NCBI GenBank assembly: GCA_017462125.1 | Contig: JAFTRQ010000100.1 | Span: forward strand, 1 to 7,103 | From: Clostridia bacterium | GTDB lineage: Bacteria; Bacillota_A; Clostridia; Oscillospirales; CAG-272 | Direction of reading: 5' to 3' | Length of the DNA: 7,103 nt | Shown here: in pieces, positions 2,650 to 7,103 of the stretch | Numbering within the stretch: the stretch's first letter is position 1 | How the letters are laid out: each line of letters begins with the position of its first letter | Program-made: the position numbers and the translations under genes | The notes under the pieces: model-generated | The model's input: the letters and a program-made list of their open reading frames with translations, nothing else | The model's database searches: none | Told to the model about the DNA's origin: nothing

Positions 2650-3519
2650 ATGAACAGCTTCATGAGTTGGATCGGCGGCAAGAAGGCTCTCCGAGATGAA
2701 ATACTTGCCCGTTTCCCGCTCGACTATAAACGGTATATAGAAGTGTTCGGCGGAGGTGGCTGGGTACTCTTTCACAAGCCTGCAGGCAGAGATTTTGAAG
2801 TGTATAACGACTTCAACCCAAATCTTGCAAACCTGTACCGCTGTGTAAGAGATCATCCCAAGGAACTGATTGCCGAACTCACCTATGTACTAAATTCCCG
2901 CATCGATTTCGATTTTGTTCGCAAAACACTGCACACAAAAACCGAAATCCCCGATATCAAGCGAGCTGCATATTTCTATCAGCTCATCCGCCAAAGTTAT
3001 GCCTCCGGTCTCGATTCGTTTGGAGCACAGCCACACTCGATGTGGAACAACTTCCCACTAATAACACAGGCCTGCTCGAGACTCCAGAAGGTAGTCATCG
3101 AAAATAAAGATTTCGAGAAGCTCATCAAACAGTACGACCGACCGGAATCCTTCTTCTACTGCGATCCTCCGTACTACGAAACCGAGGATTACTACGAAGA
3201 TGTCGGATTCACCACAAAGGATCACGAACGGCTTGCGAATGCCCTCTGTTCGATACAGGGAAAGTTTCTGCTTTCATACAATGACTGCCCGGAGATCCGA
3301 GAGCTTTACTCTCGCCCGGGTATCGTTATTGAAGGAACCTCGAGACTTTCCAACATCGCACAGCGGTATGAGGCAGGAAAGCAATACGCAGAGCTTATCA
3401 TATCGAATTATGATACCGAAGAAAAAATCAATGCTATCCGCCAGCTGTCACTCTTTGACATTATGGAGGAAAGCAGACAGCTATTAAAAGAAAGGAAAAT
3501 TATATGGACTTCAGAATGA
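2650..3519 (+). CDS. D12-class (Dam-family) N6-adenine DNA methyltransferase
   Basis: Methylates adenine N6 in a specific DNA site using SAM; 289 residues, the usual length for the Dam/D12 class. Visible motifs in class-alpha order: WIGGK at 7-11, SAM-binding motif I EVFGGGG at 31-37, YNDFN at 52-56, catalytic CDPPYY (DPPY, 172-175), FLLSYND at 206-212, and ELIISNYD at 248-255. All key residues are present, so it should be active. It follows a terminator and an inverted repeat whose arms contain GATC. No restriction endonuclease gene is adjacent, which fits an orphan enzyme protecting or marking element DNA. Its stop lies within the next gene (16-base overlap). No convincing promoter is visible in the 102-base gap before it. 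GATC as its target is plausible for the family but not shown by the sequence. Confidence 0.95.
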   Translation: MNSFMSWIGGKKALRDEILARFPLDYKRYIEVFGGGGWVLFHKPAGRDFEVYNDFNPNLANLYRCVRDHPKELIAELTYVLNSRIDFDFVRKTLHTKTEIPDIKRAAYFYQLIRQSYASGLDSFGAQPHSMWNNFPLITQACSRLQKVVIENKDFEKLIKQYDRPESFFYCDPPYYETEDYYEDVGFTTKDHERLANALCSIQGKFLLSYNDCPEIRELYSRPGIVIEGTSRLSNIAQRYEAGKQYAELIISNYDTEEKINAIRQLSLFDIMEESRQLLKERKIIWTSE

Positions 3520-3902
3520 AAATCACACTGACTCTCCCCGAGGAGATGATCAAGACGATGGGTATCACGGAAGATACCCTTTTCATTACGAGTTACGAAA
3601 ACGGTCAGATTCACGTAGAACCTTACGATGAAGATGACCTCGCCGAAGATTTCCCCGATGAGGAAGAATTTGAGGAAGATTACGACGATGATGCAATGGA
3701 AGTGGACTTCTCTGCAGCATTGGCAAGCGCTTTTGAAAGAGGCACGCGTCAGGGGTATGAAGACGGTTATGTCAACGGCTTCGGTGATGCTCACAAGGGA
3801 TTGCCTTATAACTACTATTACCGCGGCCGAATCCTCAAGCTCCATGATCATCCTGCAGATATGCCTTGCAGTCCACATTGCAGATGTAAAAACAACCACT
3901 AA
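3504..3902 (+). CDS. AbrB-like small protein with hyperacidic centre and Cys/His-rich tail
   Basis: Predicted 132 residues. The N-terminus (KITLTLPEEMIKTMGITEDT, 6-25, then a short strand pair to about 38) looks like a diverged AbrB/SpoVT swapped-hairpin domain. Residues 39-68 are extremely acidic: 19 of 30 are Asp or Glu. Next comes a Gly/Tyr segment with a GYxxGYxxG-like pattern (84-92), then a tail with H114, H116, C122, H125, C126, C128 and H132 that could bind a metal. The start at 3504 is supported by AAAGGA at 3490-3495 with eight bases of spacing; the internal ATG at 3516, which overlaps the methyltransferase stop as ATGA, is too far from it. It is translationally coupled to the adenine methyltransferase and followed 34 bases later by a second AbrB-type gene. 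Role is unknown: regulator, partner of the neighbouring AbrB protein, or a DNA mimic (inference). Confidence 0.8.
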   Translation: MDFRMKITLTLPEEMIKTMGITEDTLFITSYENGQIHVEPYDEDDLAEDFPDEEEFEEDYDDDAMEVDFSAALASAFERGTRQGYEDGYVNGFGDAHKGLPYNYYYRGRILKLHDHPADMPCSPHCRCKNNH

Positions 3903-3936: not shown

Positions 3937-4245
3937 ATGAACAAAATTTTCAAGATTCTCGGCAAGCGCGGCCGTATTACGATCCCCTACGAACTCCGCA
4001 TGAAGCTCGGCTTCCGCTACAATGATGTGCTCTCTTTCGAGGAGCAGGATGATAACACCGTAGTCATCAAACGCGAGAAGGTATGCGATAACTGCGGCAA
4101 GACAACCGAAACGAAGAAAAAGCCCAAGGATCTGGAAACCCTTCTCGATTTCCTTGATGATCTCTCTGATGATGAAAAGAAGGTAGCCTTCTTCCATCTT
4201 TGCAACGAGTGGGATAAGATCAAAAGAAACATCGTAAAGGAATAA
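3937..4245 (+). CDS. AbrB/MazE/SpoVT-family DNA-binding protein with CxxC
   Basis: Predicted 102-residue transcription factor. Residues 1-46 carry the swapped-hairpin AbrB signature: KILGKRGRITIPYELRMKLG at 6-25, then the strand-turn-strand VLSFEEQDDNTVVIKR. AbrB domains bind DNA as dimers, usually as repressors. A linker with CDNC (C50, C53) is followed by a basic stretch (KTTETKKKPKD) and a helical C-terminus (DFLDDLSDDEKKVAFFHLCNEW) that supplies H87 and C89; these four could form a zinc site, which is inference. The start is supported by AGAAAGGA at 3921-3928, eight bases upstream. It is too long for a MazE antitoxin and no toxin gene is adjacent, so an element regulator is the more likely role. 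Its position between the acidic AbrB-like gene and the antirestriction gene suggests it controls this unit. Confidence 0.9.
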   Translation: MNKIFKILGKRGRITIPYELRMKLGFRYNDVLSFEEQDDNTVVIKREKVCDNCGKTTETKKKPKDLETLLDFLDDLSDDEKKVAFFHLCNEWDKIKRNIVKE

Positions 4246-4277: not shown

Positions 4278-5423
4278 ATGAATGTACTCATAAGCAAAAA
4301 CTGCAGGCGTACATGGTTAAAGCTCCCTTGCTCCGAACTCGAAATGCAGGAAGCATTGGAAGCAGTTCAGAGTATGTCTGCACTTGATACCAATGTCCTC
4401 GTTATCGAGGTAGACGATGCTGTCAAAGAACTGAATACTCTTGTCGGTCAGCATGTAGATCTCGATCACCTTAACCTCCTCGCCAGATGCATGGACGGTC
4501 TGTTCGGTGACGAATACAATCAGTTCCGAGCAGCTCTTCATATCCGAGGAGTATCGGATCTCAAAACTATGGTCAATCTGACGCAGGAGGTGTACAACTA
4601 CACCATTGCATCTCCCGATGCTTCGCTCACATCCATCGGTAAGGATCACTACATGAACCTTCACGGCGGATGCATGACGATGGAGGATGAATCCAAGATA
4701 GACTTTTCAGCTATCGGACGGGAGCTTATCGCTTCAGGGAAAGGCATCGAATCGCCCTACGGTCTTGTGTTCGTTAATGATCTCGATCCTTCGCTGTTCT
4801 TCAACGGAACGAATATGCCGTGCTATTATGATCGCAAGTTCGTCATCAGCTGCTTCCTCAAGAACGGCGACAGATCGGAGCATCTCTTCCTACCGTGTAA
4901 TGAAAATGCGATTGCAAAAGCGGTATACAGACTCGGTGCATCCGATGTCAGTGAATGTACTGTTGAGATCGACAACTACGAATATGGCGGAAAGTTCAGC
5001 GAGCTTGTAGACTCCCTTGAGGAATACGATCTGTACGAGATGAACCGCCTTACACATGAAGTGCAGGATTTTAGCCGAGATGACCTTGAAAAGCTGGCGG
5101 CACTCTACGAGTATACGCAGAACTTCATGGAACCCGAACCGATCTATGCACTGACCTGCCTTGCAGAGCATCTTGACAGCTTCACATTCGCGCCTACCAC
5201 AGACAACACCGAGGATCTCGGAATCTATCTGATTCAGGACTCGGGTGAATACACCTACGATCCCGAGCTTGATGACTATTACAGGTACGAGTTGCTCGGC
5301 GAAGACAGAGTCGAAAACGAAAGAGGAATCTTTCTCGACTCGGGATATGTCGGCATCAAGGATGACATCGAAATTACAGATATCATTGACGAATACGGTC
5401 CGAAGATGGGAGGTATCTCATGA
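4278..5423 (+). CDS. ArdA-like antirestriction protein with internal duplication
   Basis: Predicted 381 residues, about twice the length of a usual ArdA (~165-170). ArdA proteins are elongated acidic DNA mimics that inhibit type I restriction enzymes when mobile DNA enters a new cell. The last third (DNTEDLGIYLIQDSGEY at 309-325; YELLGEDRVENERGIFLDSGY at 337-357) matches the ArdA-type C-terminal pattern. The same layout occurs earlier: LKLPCSELEMQEALEAV (14-30) parallels LFLPCNENAIAKAVYRL (203-219), and IDFSAIGRELIASGKG (141-156) parallels the later YELLGEDRVENERG. So the protein looks like two diverged ArdA-like units in tandem, joined at about 167-200. Asp and Glu are abundant throughout. 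GAGGTGA at 4267-4273 supports the start. Its stop overlaps the next start as ATGA. ArdA relationship is moderately firm; activity on restriction enzymes is inferred. Confidence 0.75.
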   Translation: MNVLISKNCRRTWLKLPCSELEMQEALEAVQSMSALDTNVLVIEVDDAVKELNTLVGQHVDLDHLNLLARCMDGLFGDEYNQFRAALHIRGVSDLKTMVNLTQEVYNYTIASPDASLTSIGKDHYMNLHGGCMTMEDESKIDFSAIGRELIASGKGIESPYGLVFVNDLDPSLFFNGTNMPCYYDRKFVISCFLKNGDRSEHLFLPCNENAIAKAVYRLGASDVSECTVEIDNYEYGGKFSELVDSLEEYDLYEMNRLTHEVQDFSRDDLEKLAALYEYTQNFMEPEPIYALTCLAEHLDSFTFAPTTDNTEDLGIYLIQDSGEYTYDPELDDYYRYELLGEDRVENERGIFLDSGYVGIKDDIEITDIIDEYGPKMGGIS

Positions 5424-6097
5424 AAATCAAGGTATATCAGATCGACCGTGAACACGACGATAAAAATCTGATGTTCATGGGCTACGATTTCACTATGAAG
5501 CACGGCGGCGTTGATCCTTCAGATTACAAATGTGTATTTGACGGCAATGTCGACTGCAGTAATCTTGAAGAAATCTATACGCTGTGCAATACCGATCATC
5601 CCATCGGATACAACGGTCATTCACTCTCGGTCAGCGATATCGTTGACGTTGAAGGTGATGGCTGTTATTTCTGTGACCGAGTCGGCTTCAAGAAGCTGGA
5701 TGACTTTGATGCATCTTCAGTCGAACCTATTCATGGCAAGCGAATGCTGGTCATCGAACCGCACAAAGCACCGTATGAGATGATCATCCCCGACAAGCTG
5801 GAAGCACTTCAGCAGGCGGTGCGCGGAATGATCGAAACCACTTATCCCTTTGAGGATAACGCTTTCATTTTCTCAAACGAGGAATCCAAGCTTATCGGCA
5901 TGGAAGGCAACCGTCGATTGAACGGTGAAATCTACGCAGGTCCTATGCTGATCGCCGGCGATGACGGAGTTGGCGGCACGACCGATCTCACCGACGAGCA
6001 GATCGCAAAATACACGAAGATGTTCGAGCAGCCGGAGGACATCTCTCCCGAAGAAGTGGAATCTTCTGCGGGATTCGGTATATACGGCTTTTATTGA
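5420..6097 (+). CDS. YodL-domain and DUF3846-domain protein
   Basis: Predicted 225-residue soluble protein with two recognisable domains of unknown function. Residues 1-97 match the YodL family: KVYQIDREHDDKNLMFMGYD, then VDPSDYKCVFDG, GYNGHSLSVSDIVDV (63-77) and VGFKKLDDF. Residues about 108-200 match DUF3846: RMLVIEPHKAPYEMIIPD, LQQAVRGMIE, and a later LIGMEGNRRLNGE. Both domains are frequent in clostridial conjugative elements next to antirestriction and methyltransferase genes; no biochemical role is established. GGGAGG at 5408-5413 supports ATG 5420, and the ATGA overlap with the ArdA-like gene indicates coupling. The acidic tail ends just before a terminator, so this is the last gene of its unit. 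Domain calls are firm; function is open. Confidence 0.9.
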   Translation: MKIKVYQIDREHDDKNLMFMGYDFTMKHGGVDPSDYKCVFDGNVDCSNLEEIYTLCNTDHPIGYNGHSLSVSDIVDVEGDGCYFCDRVGFKKLDDFDASSVEPIHGKRMLVIEPHKAPYEMIIPDKLEALQQAVRGMIETTYPFEDNAFIFSNEESKLIGMEGNRRLNGEIYAGPMLIAGDDGVGGTTDLTDEQIAKYTKMFEQPEDISPEEVESSAGFGIYGFY

Positions 6098-6104
6098 TAT
6101 GAAG

Positions 6105-6141
6105 AAGCGGAGTTTTCGTTTACACGATGCTCCGCTTTTTT
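6105..6141 (+). terminator. intrinsic terminator after the YodL gene
   Basis: An eight-base perfect stem (AAGCGGAG 6105-6112 with CTCCGCTT 6130-6137), a 17-base loop that can form a small inner TCG/CGA helix, and a T run at 6136-6141. It begins eight bases after the stop codon. Confidence 0.82.
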
Positions 6142-6148
6142 ATATATA
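6119..6148 (+). promoter_or_regulatory. possible promoter for the spoVG-like gene, overlapping the terminator
   Basis: TTTACA at 6119-6124 matches the -35 consensus at five of six bases. TATATA can be read at 6141-6146 (spacer 16) or 6143-6148 (spacer 18) as the -10. A transcript would begin about 25 bases before the spoVG start. The -10 is low-complexity TA sequence following the T tract, so this may be chance. Confidence 0.3.
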
Positions 6149-6163
6149 ACCCCATCAAAACGG

Positions 6164-6171
6164 AAAGGAGG
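6164..6171 (+). promoter_or_regulatory. strong ribosome binding site of the spoVG-like gene
   Basis: AAAGGAGG is the closest match to the full Shine-Dalgarno sequence in the window and sits eight bases before ATG 6180. An out-of-frame ATG at 6175 (ATG CCA TGA) is only three bases from this site and reads into a stop that overlaps the real start. Confidence 0.7.
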
Positions 6172-6179
6172 AAAATGCC

Positions 6180-6482
6180 ATGAAGATCGAAGCAAAAGTG
6201 CAGAAGACCTTCGATACAGGCTCGGTGAAAGCCATCTGCGATGTCACCCTTGACGGAGCATTTGCCATTCACGGAGTAAAGCTTATTGAAGGCGAAAAAG
6301 GACGCTTTGTCTCAATGCCTGCCGACAAATGGAAGAACTCGCAGGGCGAAACACAGCACAGGGACATCGCACATCCGCTCAATGCTGAAATCCGCAAGGA
6401 ACTGTTCGCGGCTGTAGAAAAAGCCTACGACAGCCATGTTCAGGATGTCAGCGAAAATGACCTGCCCTTCGGAATGAAGTAA
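6180..6482 (+). CDS. spoVG: SpoVG-family nucleic-acid-binding regulator
   Basis: A 100-residue homologue of SpoVG, a small Firmicute protein that binds DNA and RNA and affects septation, sporulation and surface-factor expression. The family pattern is clear: VKAICDVTLDGAFAIHGVKL (16-35), GRFVSMP (41-47), RDIAHPLN (61-68), then a helix ELFAAVEKAY (74-83). Length is close to the usual 84-100 residues, with a slightly longer loop after FVSMP and a polar tail. It lies between a terminator and the membrane-protein array, separated by 82 and 70 bases, and may have its own promoter. No terminator is seen after it, so transcription could continue into the array. An element-encoded copy could act on element or host genes. 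The symbol refers to the family, not to the chromosomal housekeeping gene. Confidence 0.9.
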   Translation: MKIEAKVQKTFDTGSVKAICDVTLDGAFAIHGVKLIEGEKGRFVSMPADKWKNSQGETQHRDIAHPLNAEIRKELFAAVEKAYDSHVQDVSENDLPFGMK

Positions 6483-6527
6483 TCGCACATCCCCACGCAA
6501 AAACCACAACAAATCAAAACAAAGAAC

Positions 6528-6557
6528 AGAAAGAAAACGAGGTATTTATTTTATGAA
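6528..6557 (+). repeat. leader repeat, copy 1 (ribosome binding site to start codon)
   Basis: A 30-base leader with GAGGT at 6539-6543 followed by an AT-only stretch and ATG. It differs from copy 2 at two positions. The conserved spacing and sequence extend beyond what a ribosome binding site needs. Confidence 0.8.
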
Positions 6558-6783
6558 AAAGTTCTTTAATTCCATTTCCAACAAGCTCAACTCCATCGCA
6601 GTTTCCGCAAAGAGCGCAATTGCCAACACCCGCGGCGAAGGCTACGTGGATTCCGGCGTCAAGATCCTTATCGCCGTTGTAATCGGTGCACTCTTGCTCT
6701 CCGGTCTTTATGCACTCTTCAACACCACCATCATGCCCACTGTGACCTCCAAGATCACCGAGCTCTTCAACTTCGCGGGCTAA
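6553..6783 (+). CDS. small single-span membrane protein, DUF6133-like, tandem copy 1
   Basis: A 76-residue protein: a basic, amphipathic N-terminus (about 1-21), a short hydrophilic segment NTRGEGYVDSG (25-35), one strongly hydrophobic span VKILIAVVIGALLLSGLYAL (36-55), and a C-terminal amphipathic segment ending LFNFAG. It resembles the DUF6133 family of clostridial mobile elements (recalled, not searched). The RG-EGYVD sequence before the span resembles a class III (pilin-type) processing site, with Asp in the place usually held by Glu; that would release a pilin-like peptide. This is inference. The leader carries GAGGT at 6539-6543. It shares its last 55 residues exactly with the next gene. 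A role in a conjugation machine surface structure is plausible; a holin-like or other small membrane role is not excluded. Confidence 0.85.
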   Translation: MKKFFNSISNKLNSIAVSAKSAIANTRGEGYVDSGVKILIAVVIGALLLSGLYALFNTTIMPTVTSKITELFNFAG

Positions 6784-6786
6784 TCC
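6616..6786 (+). repeat. tandem gene repeat, unit in copy 1
   Basis: Fifty-five codons plus stop and three bases, matched by 6881-7051. The two units differ at 17 bases, all silent. Sixteen of these fall in the first 32 codons and only one in the last 75 bases (6712-6786 against 6977-7051). Confidence 0.92.
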
Positions 6787-6813
6787 CTCATTCACAACCA
6801 AATTTAAAAACAA

Positions 6814-6843
6814 AGAAAGATAACGAGGTATTTATTCTATGAA
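6814..6843 (+). repeat. leader repeat, copy 2
   Basis: A 30-base leader with GAGGT at 6825-6829 and ATG at 6839. It has one mismatch to copy 3 (6831 against 7091) and two to copy 1. Confidence 0.85.
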
Positions 6844-7048
6844 AAAGATCATCAACTCCATCGTAACCCGTACTCAGACCGCTATCGCCAACACCCGCGG
6901 CGAGGGCTATGTAGACTCTGGTGTCAAGATTCTTATCGCAGTCGTAATCGGTGCGCTTCTGCTCTCCGGTCTCTACGCACTCTTCAACACCACCATCATG
7001 CCCACCGTGACCTCCAAGATCACCGAGCTCTTCAACTTCGCGGGCTAA
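6839..7048 (+). CDS. small single-span membrane protein, DUF6133-like, tandem copy 2
   Basis: A 69-residue paralogue of the preceding gene. Its N-terminus is different and seven residues shorter (MKKIINSIVTRTQT), but residues 15-69 are identical to residues 22-76 of copy 1, including the RGEGYVD segment (20-26), the hydrophobic span (29-48) and the ending LFNFAG. The DNA of the shared part has 17 silent differences, so the protein sequence is under tight constraint and this is not a fresh duplication. It lies 55 bases after copy 1, with the same leader and no terminator between them, so the copies are probably co-transcribed. The variable N-terminus would be lost if the pilin-type site were cut, which would make the mature products identical (inference). 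Confidence 0.85.
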   Translation: MKKIINSIVTRTQTAIANTRGEGYVDSGVKILIAVVIGALLLSGLYALFNTTIMPTVTSKITELFNFAG

Positions 7049-7051
7049 TCC
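6881..7051 (+). repeat. tandem gene repeat, unit in copy 2
   Basis: Partner of 6616-6786. It encodes the same 55 residues with 17 silent base differences, clustered in the 5' part. Confidence 0.92.
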
Positions 7052-7073
7052 ACTATCCAACAAATAAAAACAC

Positions 7074-7103
7074 AGAAAGATAACGAGGTAATTATTCTAT
7101 GAA
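7074..7103 (+). repeat. leader repeat, copy 3, at window edge
   Basis: A 30-base leader with GAGGT at 7085-7089 and ATG at 7099, matching copy 2 at 29 of 30 bases. It predicts a third gene of the array beyond the window. Confidence 0.85.
7099..7103 (+). CDS. start of a third tandem membrane-protein gene (cut by window end)
   Basis: Only ATG GA.. followed by the edge (ATGAA, as in MKK of copies 1 and 2) is visible. The call rests on the conserved 30-base leader and on spacing: 260 bases from the start of copy 2, against 286 between copies 1 and 2. Its length and sequence are unknown. Confidence 0.6.

Follow-up and report, generated by a model that had tools for sequence, protein, structure and literature searches.

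A tandem array of DUF6133 genes probably encodes Flp-like prepilins of a Tad-type pilus borne by clostridial conjugative elements

The stretch of DNA analysed here (the window) spans 7,103 nucleotides of contig JAFTRQ010000100.1 from a Clostridia bacterium. Its positions 1–808 resembled, by inspection, the end of a C5 cytosine methyltransferase gene. The window genes listed next lie on the forward strand. Pfam matches to a D12 adenine methyltransferase (2650–3519), ArdA (4278–5423) and YodL/DUF3846 (5420–6097) indicated a mobile-element context, and two AbrB/MazE-like proteins were encoded at 3504–3902 (below the Pfam cut-off) and 3937–4245. A SpoVG-family gene (6180–6482; PF04026, E 3.3e-24) was followed by two small genes at 6553–6783 (copy 1, 76 aa) and 6839–7048 (copy 2, 69 aa). 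Both products belonged to DUF6133 (PF19629), with scores of 101.6 bits (E 2.6e-29) and 100.2 bits (E 7.2e-29) against a Pfam cut-off of 27 bits; the function of this family is given as unknown in the Pfam listing. The sequence GAGGT, which is Shine-Dalgarno-like and was named by inspection, was located 5′ of copy 1 (6539–6543) and of copy 2 (6825–6829), and no promoter or terminator patterns were found in a scan of positions 6000–7103. The GC3 values of the two copies were 0.72 and 0.75, compared with 0.51–0.64 in nine other window genes, which fits high expression.

The last 55 residues of copies 1 and 2, together with the stop codon, were identical. Of the 168 DNA positions concerned, 17 differed, in 17 codons (1 at codon position 1 and 16 at codon position 3), and all of the differences were synonymous, corresponding to an NG86 dN of 0 and dS of 0.56. 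Since about 43 of the 165 sites are synonymous, the probability that all 17 would be silent by chance is about 1e-10. An earlier note on this DNA had reported the 55 shared C-terminal residues and the 17 silent differences, and the recount gave the same figures. It had also described two complete genes and the start of a third, and the coordinates above bear this out, with the third gene being probable. The N-termini outside the shared stretch were 21 (copy 1) and 14 (copy 2) residues long, as it had stated, but its view that they vary freely held only in part, because an MKK start and NSI were common to both. The 35 bases ending at position 7103 matched the leader of copy 2 at 33 positions and that of copy 1 at 30, whereas the next best site in the window matched at 19 of 35 and the best of 30 shuffles at 21 of 35. 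This leader match made a third copy likely: a DUF6133 gene probably begins at 7099, preceded by GAGGT at 7085–7089, and five of its coding bases (ATGAA, 7099–7103) are visible before the window ends.

A scan of species genomes with patterns derived from the window protein yielded 138 relatives, and the analysis covered the best 80; by their titles these were mostly from Clostridia, and many were from animal gut or faeces. DUF6133 itself has thousands of members, with 5617 and at least 7991 matches in two overlapping searches. A SpoVG-family gene typically preceded the pilin genes, lying at most 1500 nt away in 50 of the 69 loci with room. After the array, the relatives encoded an A24 prepilin peptidase (TadV), CpaB, an ATPase at the TadZ position, CpaF, TadB, TadC and DUF4320 (TadE-like). 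In the locus L008, Pfam matches were obtained to Peptidase_A24 (E 3.4e-9), RcpC/CpaB (E 6.9e-8, with SAF), T2SSE (E 1.5e-33) and DUF4320 (E 2.7e-34); two membrane proteins lay between CpaF and DUF4320, at the TadB and TadC positions, and no T2SSF domain was seen in either of them by Pfam. The TadB and TadC assignments were based on gene position and on profile comparison with the Flp-type Tad loci of two genomes (G012 and G006), which was made without controls and gave 97% for TadB, 85% for TadC, and only 14% for TadV against one Flp-type TadV. The TadZ-position assignment was based on position and the P-loop, a P-loop ATPase being present between CpaB and CpaF in all 54 loci having both. The Tad components CpaF/TadA ATPase, TadB, TadC, TadV and TadZ-position ATPase were thus present in the relatives, with CpaF equally close to VirB11: by NCBIfam it scored 133.3 for VirB11 and 132.5 for TadA, both under the cut-off. 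CpaB scored 68.3, just under its cut-off of 71, and no NCBIfam names were obtained for TadB, TadC, DUF4320 or a TadF-like protein. DUF4320 (PF14208; e.g. L008:11766–12176) is probably a TadE-like pseudopilin.

With profiles built from these loci's own genes, TadV was found after the array in 63 of 66 loci with 1200 nt of room and, where the contig sufficed, CpaB in 57 of 60, CpaF in 44 of 51 and TadB in 31 of 40. TadV was missed despite room in L007, which still had CpaB and CpaF matches, and in L014 and L042, which by eye look like isolated remnants. Two Asp columns of the A24 peptidase were conserved (65/66 and 65/65) and presumably represent the catalytic pair. L023, L041, L066 and L080 most resembled the window in the order of their upstream genes; in all four, TadV followed the pilins and ArdA was not detected. 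Location in a tad locus was observed in the relatives only, the window ending before any Tad gene; presumably it continues into the same Tad cluster.

A prepilin-like site, (A/G)^EGYVD (the caret marks the predicted cut), with an acidic residue at +5, was common to DUF6133 and DUF4320. A permissive site pattern fitted 151 of 156 copies; in tallies that depend on the pattern used to locate the site, −1 was Ala or Gly in 151 of 151 and +5 was Asp in 149 of 151. Position +6 was Ser or Thr in 147 of 151 and was never Tyr. In a divergent copy (L070:5974–6222), Glu replaced Asp at +5 (ENGFVEEALKI), as in classical pilins. A start of the GEGY[IV] type was also present in DUF4320 and in the TadF-like protein of the same cluster, and the profile comparison of DUF6133 with DUF4320 gave 95.8%.

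In G012, a Flp-type Tad locus containing two flp genes in tandem (C9: L082, L109) coexisted with a DUF6133 locus on another contig (C2: L092). The two Flp pilins of this genome had the motif GQGMVEY, and a TadE-like protein after them, named by inspection, had GQSMVEF. Alignment of RG^EGYVD with EG^QGMVE placed the acidic residue at +5 in both. The same register was obtained unaided in a profile comparison of DUF6133 with Flp (score 26.3, probability 64.5%), for which motif filters had taken out 2 of the 120 Flp rows and 3 of the 148 DUF6133 frames; the best of 20 hydrophobic control windows reached 18.6 and 11.5%. The unfiltered comparison gave 21.6 and 24.4% with the register unchanged, and because of this drop the Flp profile line is supportive but weak.

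Cleavage at this site would yield leaders of 28 codons in copy 1 (6553–6636, ending NTRG) and 21 codons in copy 2 (6839–6901), which differ in length and sequence, and predicted mature pilins of 48 codons (6637–6780, EGYVD...NFAG, in copy 1; 6902–7045 in copy 2) that are identical in protein sequence. These boundaries were predicted by motif alignment to Flp and DUF4320, and the AF2 model of copy 1 (mean pLDDT 74.5, pTM 0.39) showed a helix at residues 2–26, a break at 27–29 and one long helix at 30–72. The identical stretch corresponded to the 48-residue predicted mature part plus 7 residues back into the predicted leader, and the window copies differed in the predicted leader only. The single mature protein claimed in the earlier note is thus close to what the prediction gives, although the identity extends beyond it. 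Searches with PF04964 (Flp_Fap) gave no match to the window proteins at E ≤ 0.1 and none at the DUF6133 places in 13 genomes at E ≤ 1; PDB searches gave chance-level matches by sequence (best E 0.24) and nothing better than E 3.1 by fold. Because of the missing PF04964 match, the missing Tyr at +6, the uninformative structure searches and the ambiguous CpaF, the proteins were named Flp-like and not Flp. Taken together, a Tad-type pilin is the most fitting interpretation of DUF6133, and cleavage at (A/G)^E followed by assembly presumably occurs. The earlier suggestion of a structural subunit fits well with a family that heads a Tad-type pilus gene set in relatives and carries a prepilin-like site; the pilus itself and the leader/mature boundary had not been part of it.

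The relatives also carried conjugation genes near the arrays. VirD4 was encoded on the same contig as the pilin array in 10 of 13 genomes, at a distance of 0.7–33 kb. The exceptions were G008 (VirD4 on another contig), G011 (a weak match on another contig) and G009 (none), which may be broken assemblies. A VirB4-like ATPase was found within 50 kb of the pilins in 12 of the 13 genomes, in 4 of them below the family cut-off; in G008 a 19.5-bit match in a 905-aa frame was not counted. The element in G002 contained genes for a MobL relaxase, TrbL_5, a VirB4-like ATPase, NlpC/P60 and VirD4, and that in G001 for a relaxase, VirD4, PrgI and a VirB4-like ATPase. In each of these two elements the Tad set shared a strand with the conjugation genes, which in G002 began within ∼2 kb after the Tad set and its large secreted protein. 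The pilin adjoined VirD4 in G005 and in part of G006. Shortly before TrbL_5 in G002 there was a small membrane protein, DUF3852 (PF12963; L099:8207–8542), that may serve as T4SS pilin of the element itself.

A plasmid search (PLSDB, E 1e-5) gave no match. Phage origin was considered and rejected: a pattern scan of viral contigs returned no relative, and the matching records, three unverified 'Bacteriophage sp.' entries from human faeces (L118, L119 and L120), contained a DUF6133 gene with Tad genes and, in two of them, ArdA, D12, YodL and SpoVG genes as well. With these same-cluster genes, they resemble conjugative-element fragments.

Just after the pseudopilin genes, eight of ten elements (G001, G002, G003, G004, G006, G007, G012 and G013) each encoded one large secreted-type protein of 576–1503 aa (e.g. 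L099:5883–7646 and L114:10504–12237) with the C-terminus (Y/W)DDW(Y/H/F); none was found in three Flp-type regions. In Pfam searches the L099 protein had no match and the L089 protein had a Listeria-Bacteroides repeat, and a structural model was unusable (mean pLDDT 36). This protein is possibly a tip adhesin.

Gene order, motif, conserved peptidase aspartates and linkage to conjugation genes were all observed in the relatives. We infer, with a probability of roughly 0.7, that the products of the tandem genes are Flp-like prepilins for a Tad-type (type IVc) pilus that a clostridial conjugative element encodes, most likely for mating. The element-encoded A24 peptidase (TadV) would cleave the prepilin at (A/G)^EGYVD, on the C-terminal side of the conserved Ala/Gly, to give a 48-residue helical subunit, and CpaF, TadB and TadC would polymerise the subunits. 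Both window copies would give rise to the same mature subunit from different discarded leaders, so that the array would add dose of one fibre protein. The most likely role of the pilus would be to hold donor and recipient together in conjugation. The presence of VirD4 on the array contig in most of the 13 genomes suggests a mating-pair pilus; this is the best-supported role, and surface adhesion is its main rival.

Tad pili are best known as adhesins. It is conceivable, though unlikely, that the Flp-like Tad pilus is cargo of the element, serving adhesion of the host to gut surfaces, fibre or mucus and taking no part in DNA transfer. Tad pili are described as adhesins in the available text of a report on Cutibacterium acnes linear plasmids, which carry a tad locus and conjugation-type genes (VirB4, TcpC-like) and for which the authors leave the link between pili and conjugation open (PMC5696575). 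These plasmids likewise combine a Tad locus with conjugation-type genes on one Gram-positive mobile element; they differ in being actinobacterial and linear and in having four TadE-like proteins as pilin candidates, and DUF6133 is not mentioned in the portions of the report available to us (PMC5696575). The large secreted-type protein found in eight of the ten elements, if it is an adhesin, would also suit cargo. However, the Tad and conjugation genes are co-stranded in G001 and G002, those for conjugation in G002 start within ∼2 kb after the Tad set with its secreted protein, and the linkage recurs across different hosts. Moreover, stabilisation of mating pairs, in broth and in the gut, has been described for the type IV pilus of a plasmid, the IncI2 plasmid TP114 (PMC9045228, available part). 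Like the pilus proposed here, it is a type IV pilus on a conjugative element, but it is a PilS/PilV pilus with a shufflon, in enterobacteria.

Copy number and selection in the family bear on what the array is for. At a 72-bit cut, with L053 (a cut copy) excluded and the divergent longer copies of L023 and L028 included, the 79 loci and the window comprised 28 sequences with one copy, 38 with two, 6 with three, 7 with four and 1 with six. Of 47 arrays flanked on both sides by a marker gene, 14 had one copy, 20 had two, 7 had three and 6 had four, so that two to four copies were present in 33, in agreement with the earlier note. Usable dS was obtained for 105 of 108 within-locus pairs; dN/dS was <1 in all of them (median 0.18, maximum 0.52), which upholds the strong purifying selection that had been claimed. 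For 70 adjacent pairs the median dN/dS was 0.14 and the median core identity 88%. Pairs with identical proteins numbered 4 of 108, namely that of the window and one each in L028, L080 and L065, the last being identical in DNA too and located at a contig end. Where paralogues differed, the changes lay mostly in the C-terminal half of the mature part. Identity between loci (78 sequences) was 22% over 20 leader positions, which were taken from stop-to-stop frames so that the outermost may lie before the true start, and 74% in the mature part, rising to 71% and 84%, respectively, within loci. Stronger constraint on the assembled part than on the leader would explain the copy identity in a simple way. 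With only three other identical pairs among 108, dosage suits the window better than the whole family: for the window it is a good reading, supported by the high GC3, and many other arrays may make mixed fibres. The high dosage proposed in the earlier note therefore stands for the window pair but is less general than it implied, given the core identity of adjacent pairs.

It seems rather improbable that the arrays hold variant pilins selected for difference, providing mixed or switching fibre surfaces, with the window pair identical only through gene conversion. Adjacent paralogues elsewhere do differ, as their median core identity indicates, and do so in the half that includes the outward-pointing end in Caulobacter, where the mature Tad pilin is reported to have 45 residues, following a 14-residue leader, with the N-end inside and the C-end outside (PMC11067988, available part). 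In the window pair, no differences fell in the last 13 of the 55 codons (post hoc P about 0.004), and the 3′ end held an identical 45-base block that took in the stop codon and three further bases, which makes patchy gene conversion possible. Nevertheless, conversion of the block fails to explain the protein identity, because all 17 silent changes precede the block and the protein is identical there too; the dN/dS values of the 105 usable pairs also speak against selection for difference. As for the earlier rejection of a recent duplication, the silent divergence agrees with it, but possible conversion at the 3′ end qualifies it.

VirB2-type T4SS pilins lie beside VirB3/VirB4-type genes and have a Sec signal and two membrane helices. 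That DUF6133 is such a subunit of the element's type IV secretion system, and not a type IV filament pilin, is very improbable: although it is a small membrane protein with high GC3, on a conjugative element in relatives and beside VirD4 in G005 and part of G006, none of these three features (position, Sec signal, two helices) was found in it, its neighbours being Tad genes and not TrbL/PrgI/VirB4, and one hydrophobic stretch without a Sec-type signal being seen by inspection and in the AF2 model, and G002 has the separate DUF3852 protein before TrbL_5. DUF6133 could also be a small membrane protein with no relation to the pilus (a toxin, holin or regulator) that precedes Tad genes by chance; this would accord with the unknown status of the family in Pfam and with its lack of a Flp profile match, but is scarcely credible given the motif common to two pseudopilin-like proteins of the same cluster, a Flp profile comparison that is weak but above 20 controls, and the TadV linkage in 63/66 loci.

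The reading of DUF6133 as Flp-like prepilins of a mating-pair pilus can be compared with known systems. As with Flp pilins (PF04964), DUF6133 proteins would be small one-helix prepilins with an acidic +5 residue and a leader expected to be cut by TadV; they are encoded with TadA/B/C/V/Z, RcpC and TadE-like genes and occur in tandem copies, as do the two flp genes in L082. Unlike Flp, they lack a PF04964 match and Tyr at +6 and have Asp in place of Glu at +5, and the predicted window leaders of 28 and 21 aa are longer than the 14 reported for Caulobacter (PMC11067988, available part). The accompanying Tad genes show no more than remote similarity to the Flp-type ones of G012 and G006: the DUF6133-locus CpaF profile scored 173 and 144 bits on the Flp-type CpaF of these genomes compared with 664–800 bits in nine of ten elements (the best in G006 itself being 349), the TadB profile scored 45–46 bits on Flp-type loci, and TadC and TadV were missed there. 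The G001 and G002 elements may be akin to Tn1549-like clostridial ICEs, with which they share relaxase, VirD4, PrgI, VirB4-like and NlpC/P60 genes, over the two elements, but they differ in carrying a Tad-type gene set. Conjugative elements of Gram-positive bacteria are generally regarded as lacking pili.

A literature search of open-access papers found none naming DUF6133 or DUF4320. In the available text of Imam et al. 2011, 'no Flp_2' tad loci are reported in Clostridia, and proteins without Tyr at +6 are termed Flp-like (PMC3244431). By the low scores of their profiles on Flp-type Tad genes, the DUF6133 loci fit the 'no Flp_2' description as given there, and the two are presumably the same group. 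More tentatively, and somewhat short of probable, DUF6133 may be the missing 'no Flp_2' pilin, and a large class of clostridial conjugative elements may build its own Tad mating-pair pilus, tipped or accompanied by the secreted protein ending in DDW(Y/H/F). If the main reading is right, a function would be assigned to the uncharacterised DUF6133 family with its thousands of members, a pilin would possibly be supplied for tad loci that in 2011 had none that could be recognised, and the way gut Clostridia form mating pairs could be tested directly through removal of one gene set.
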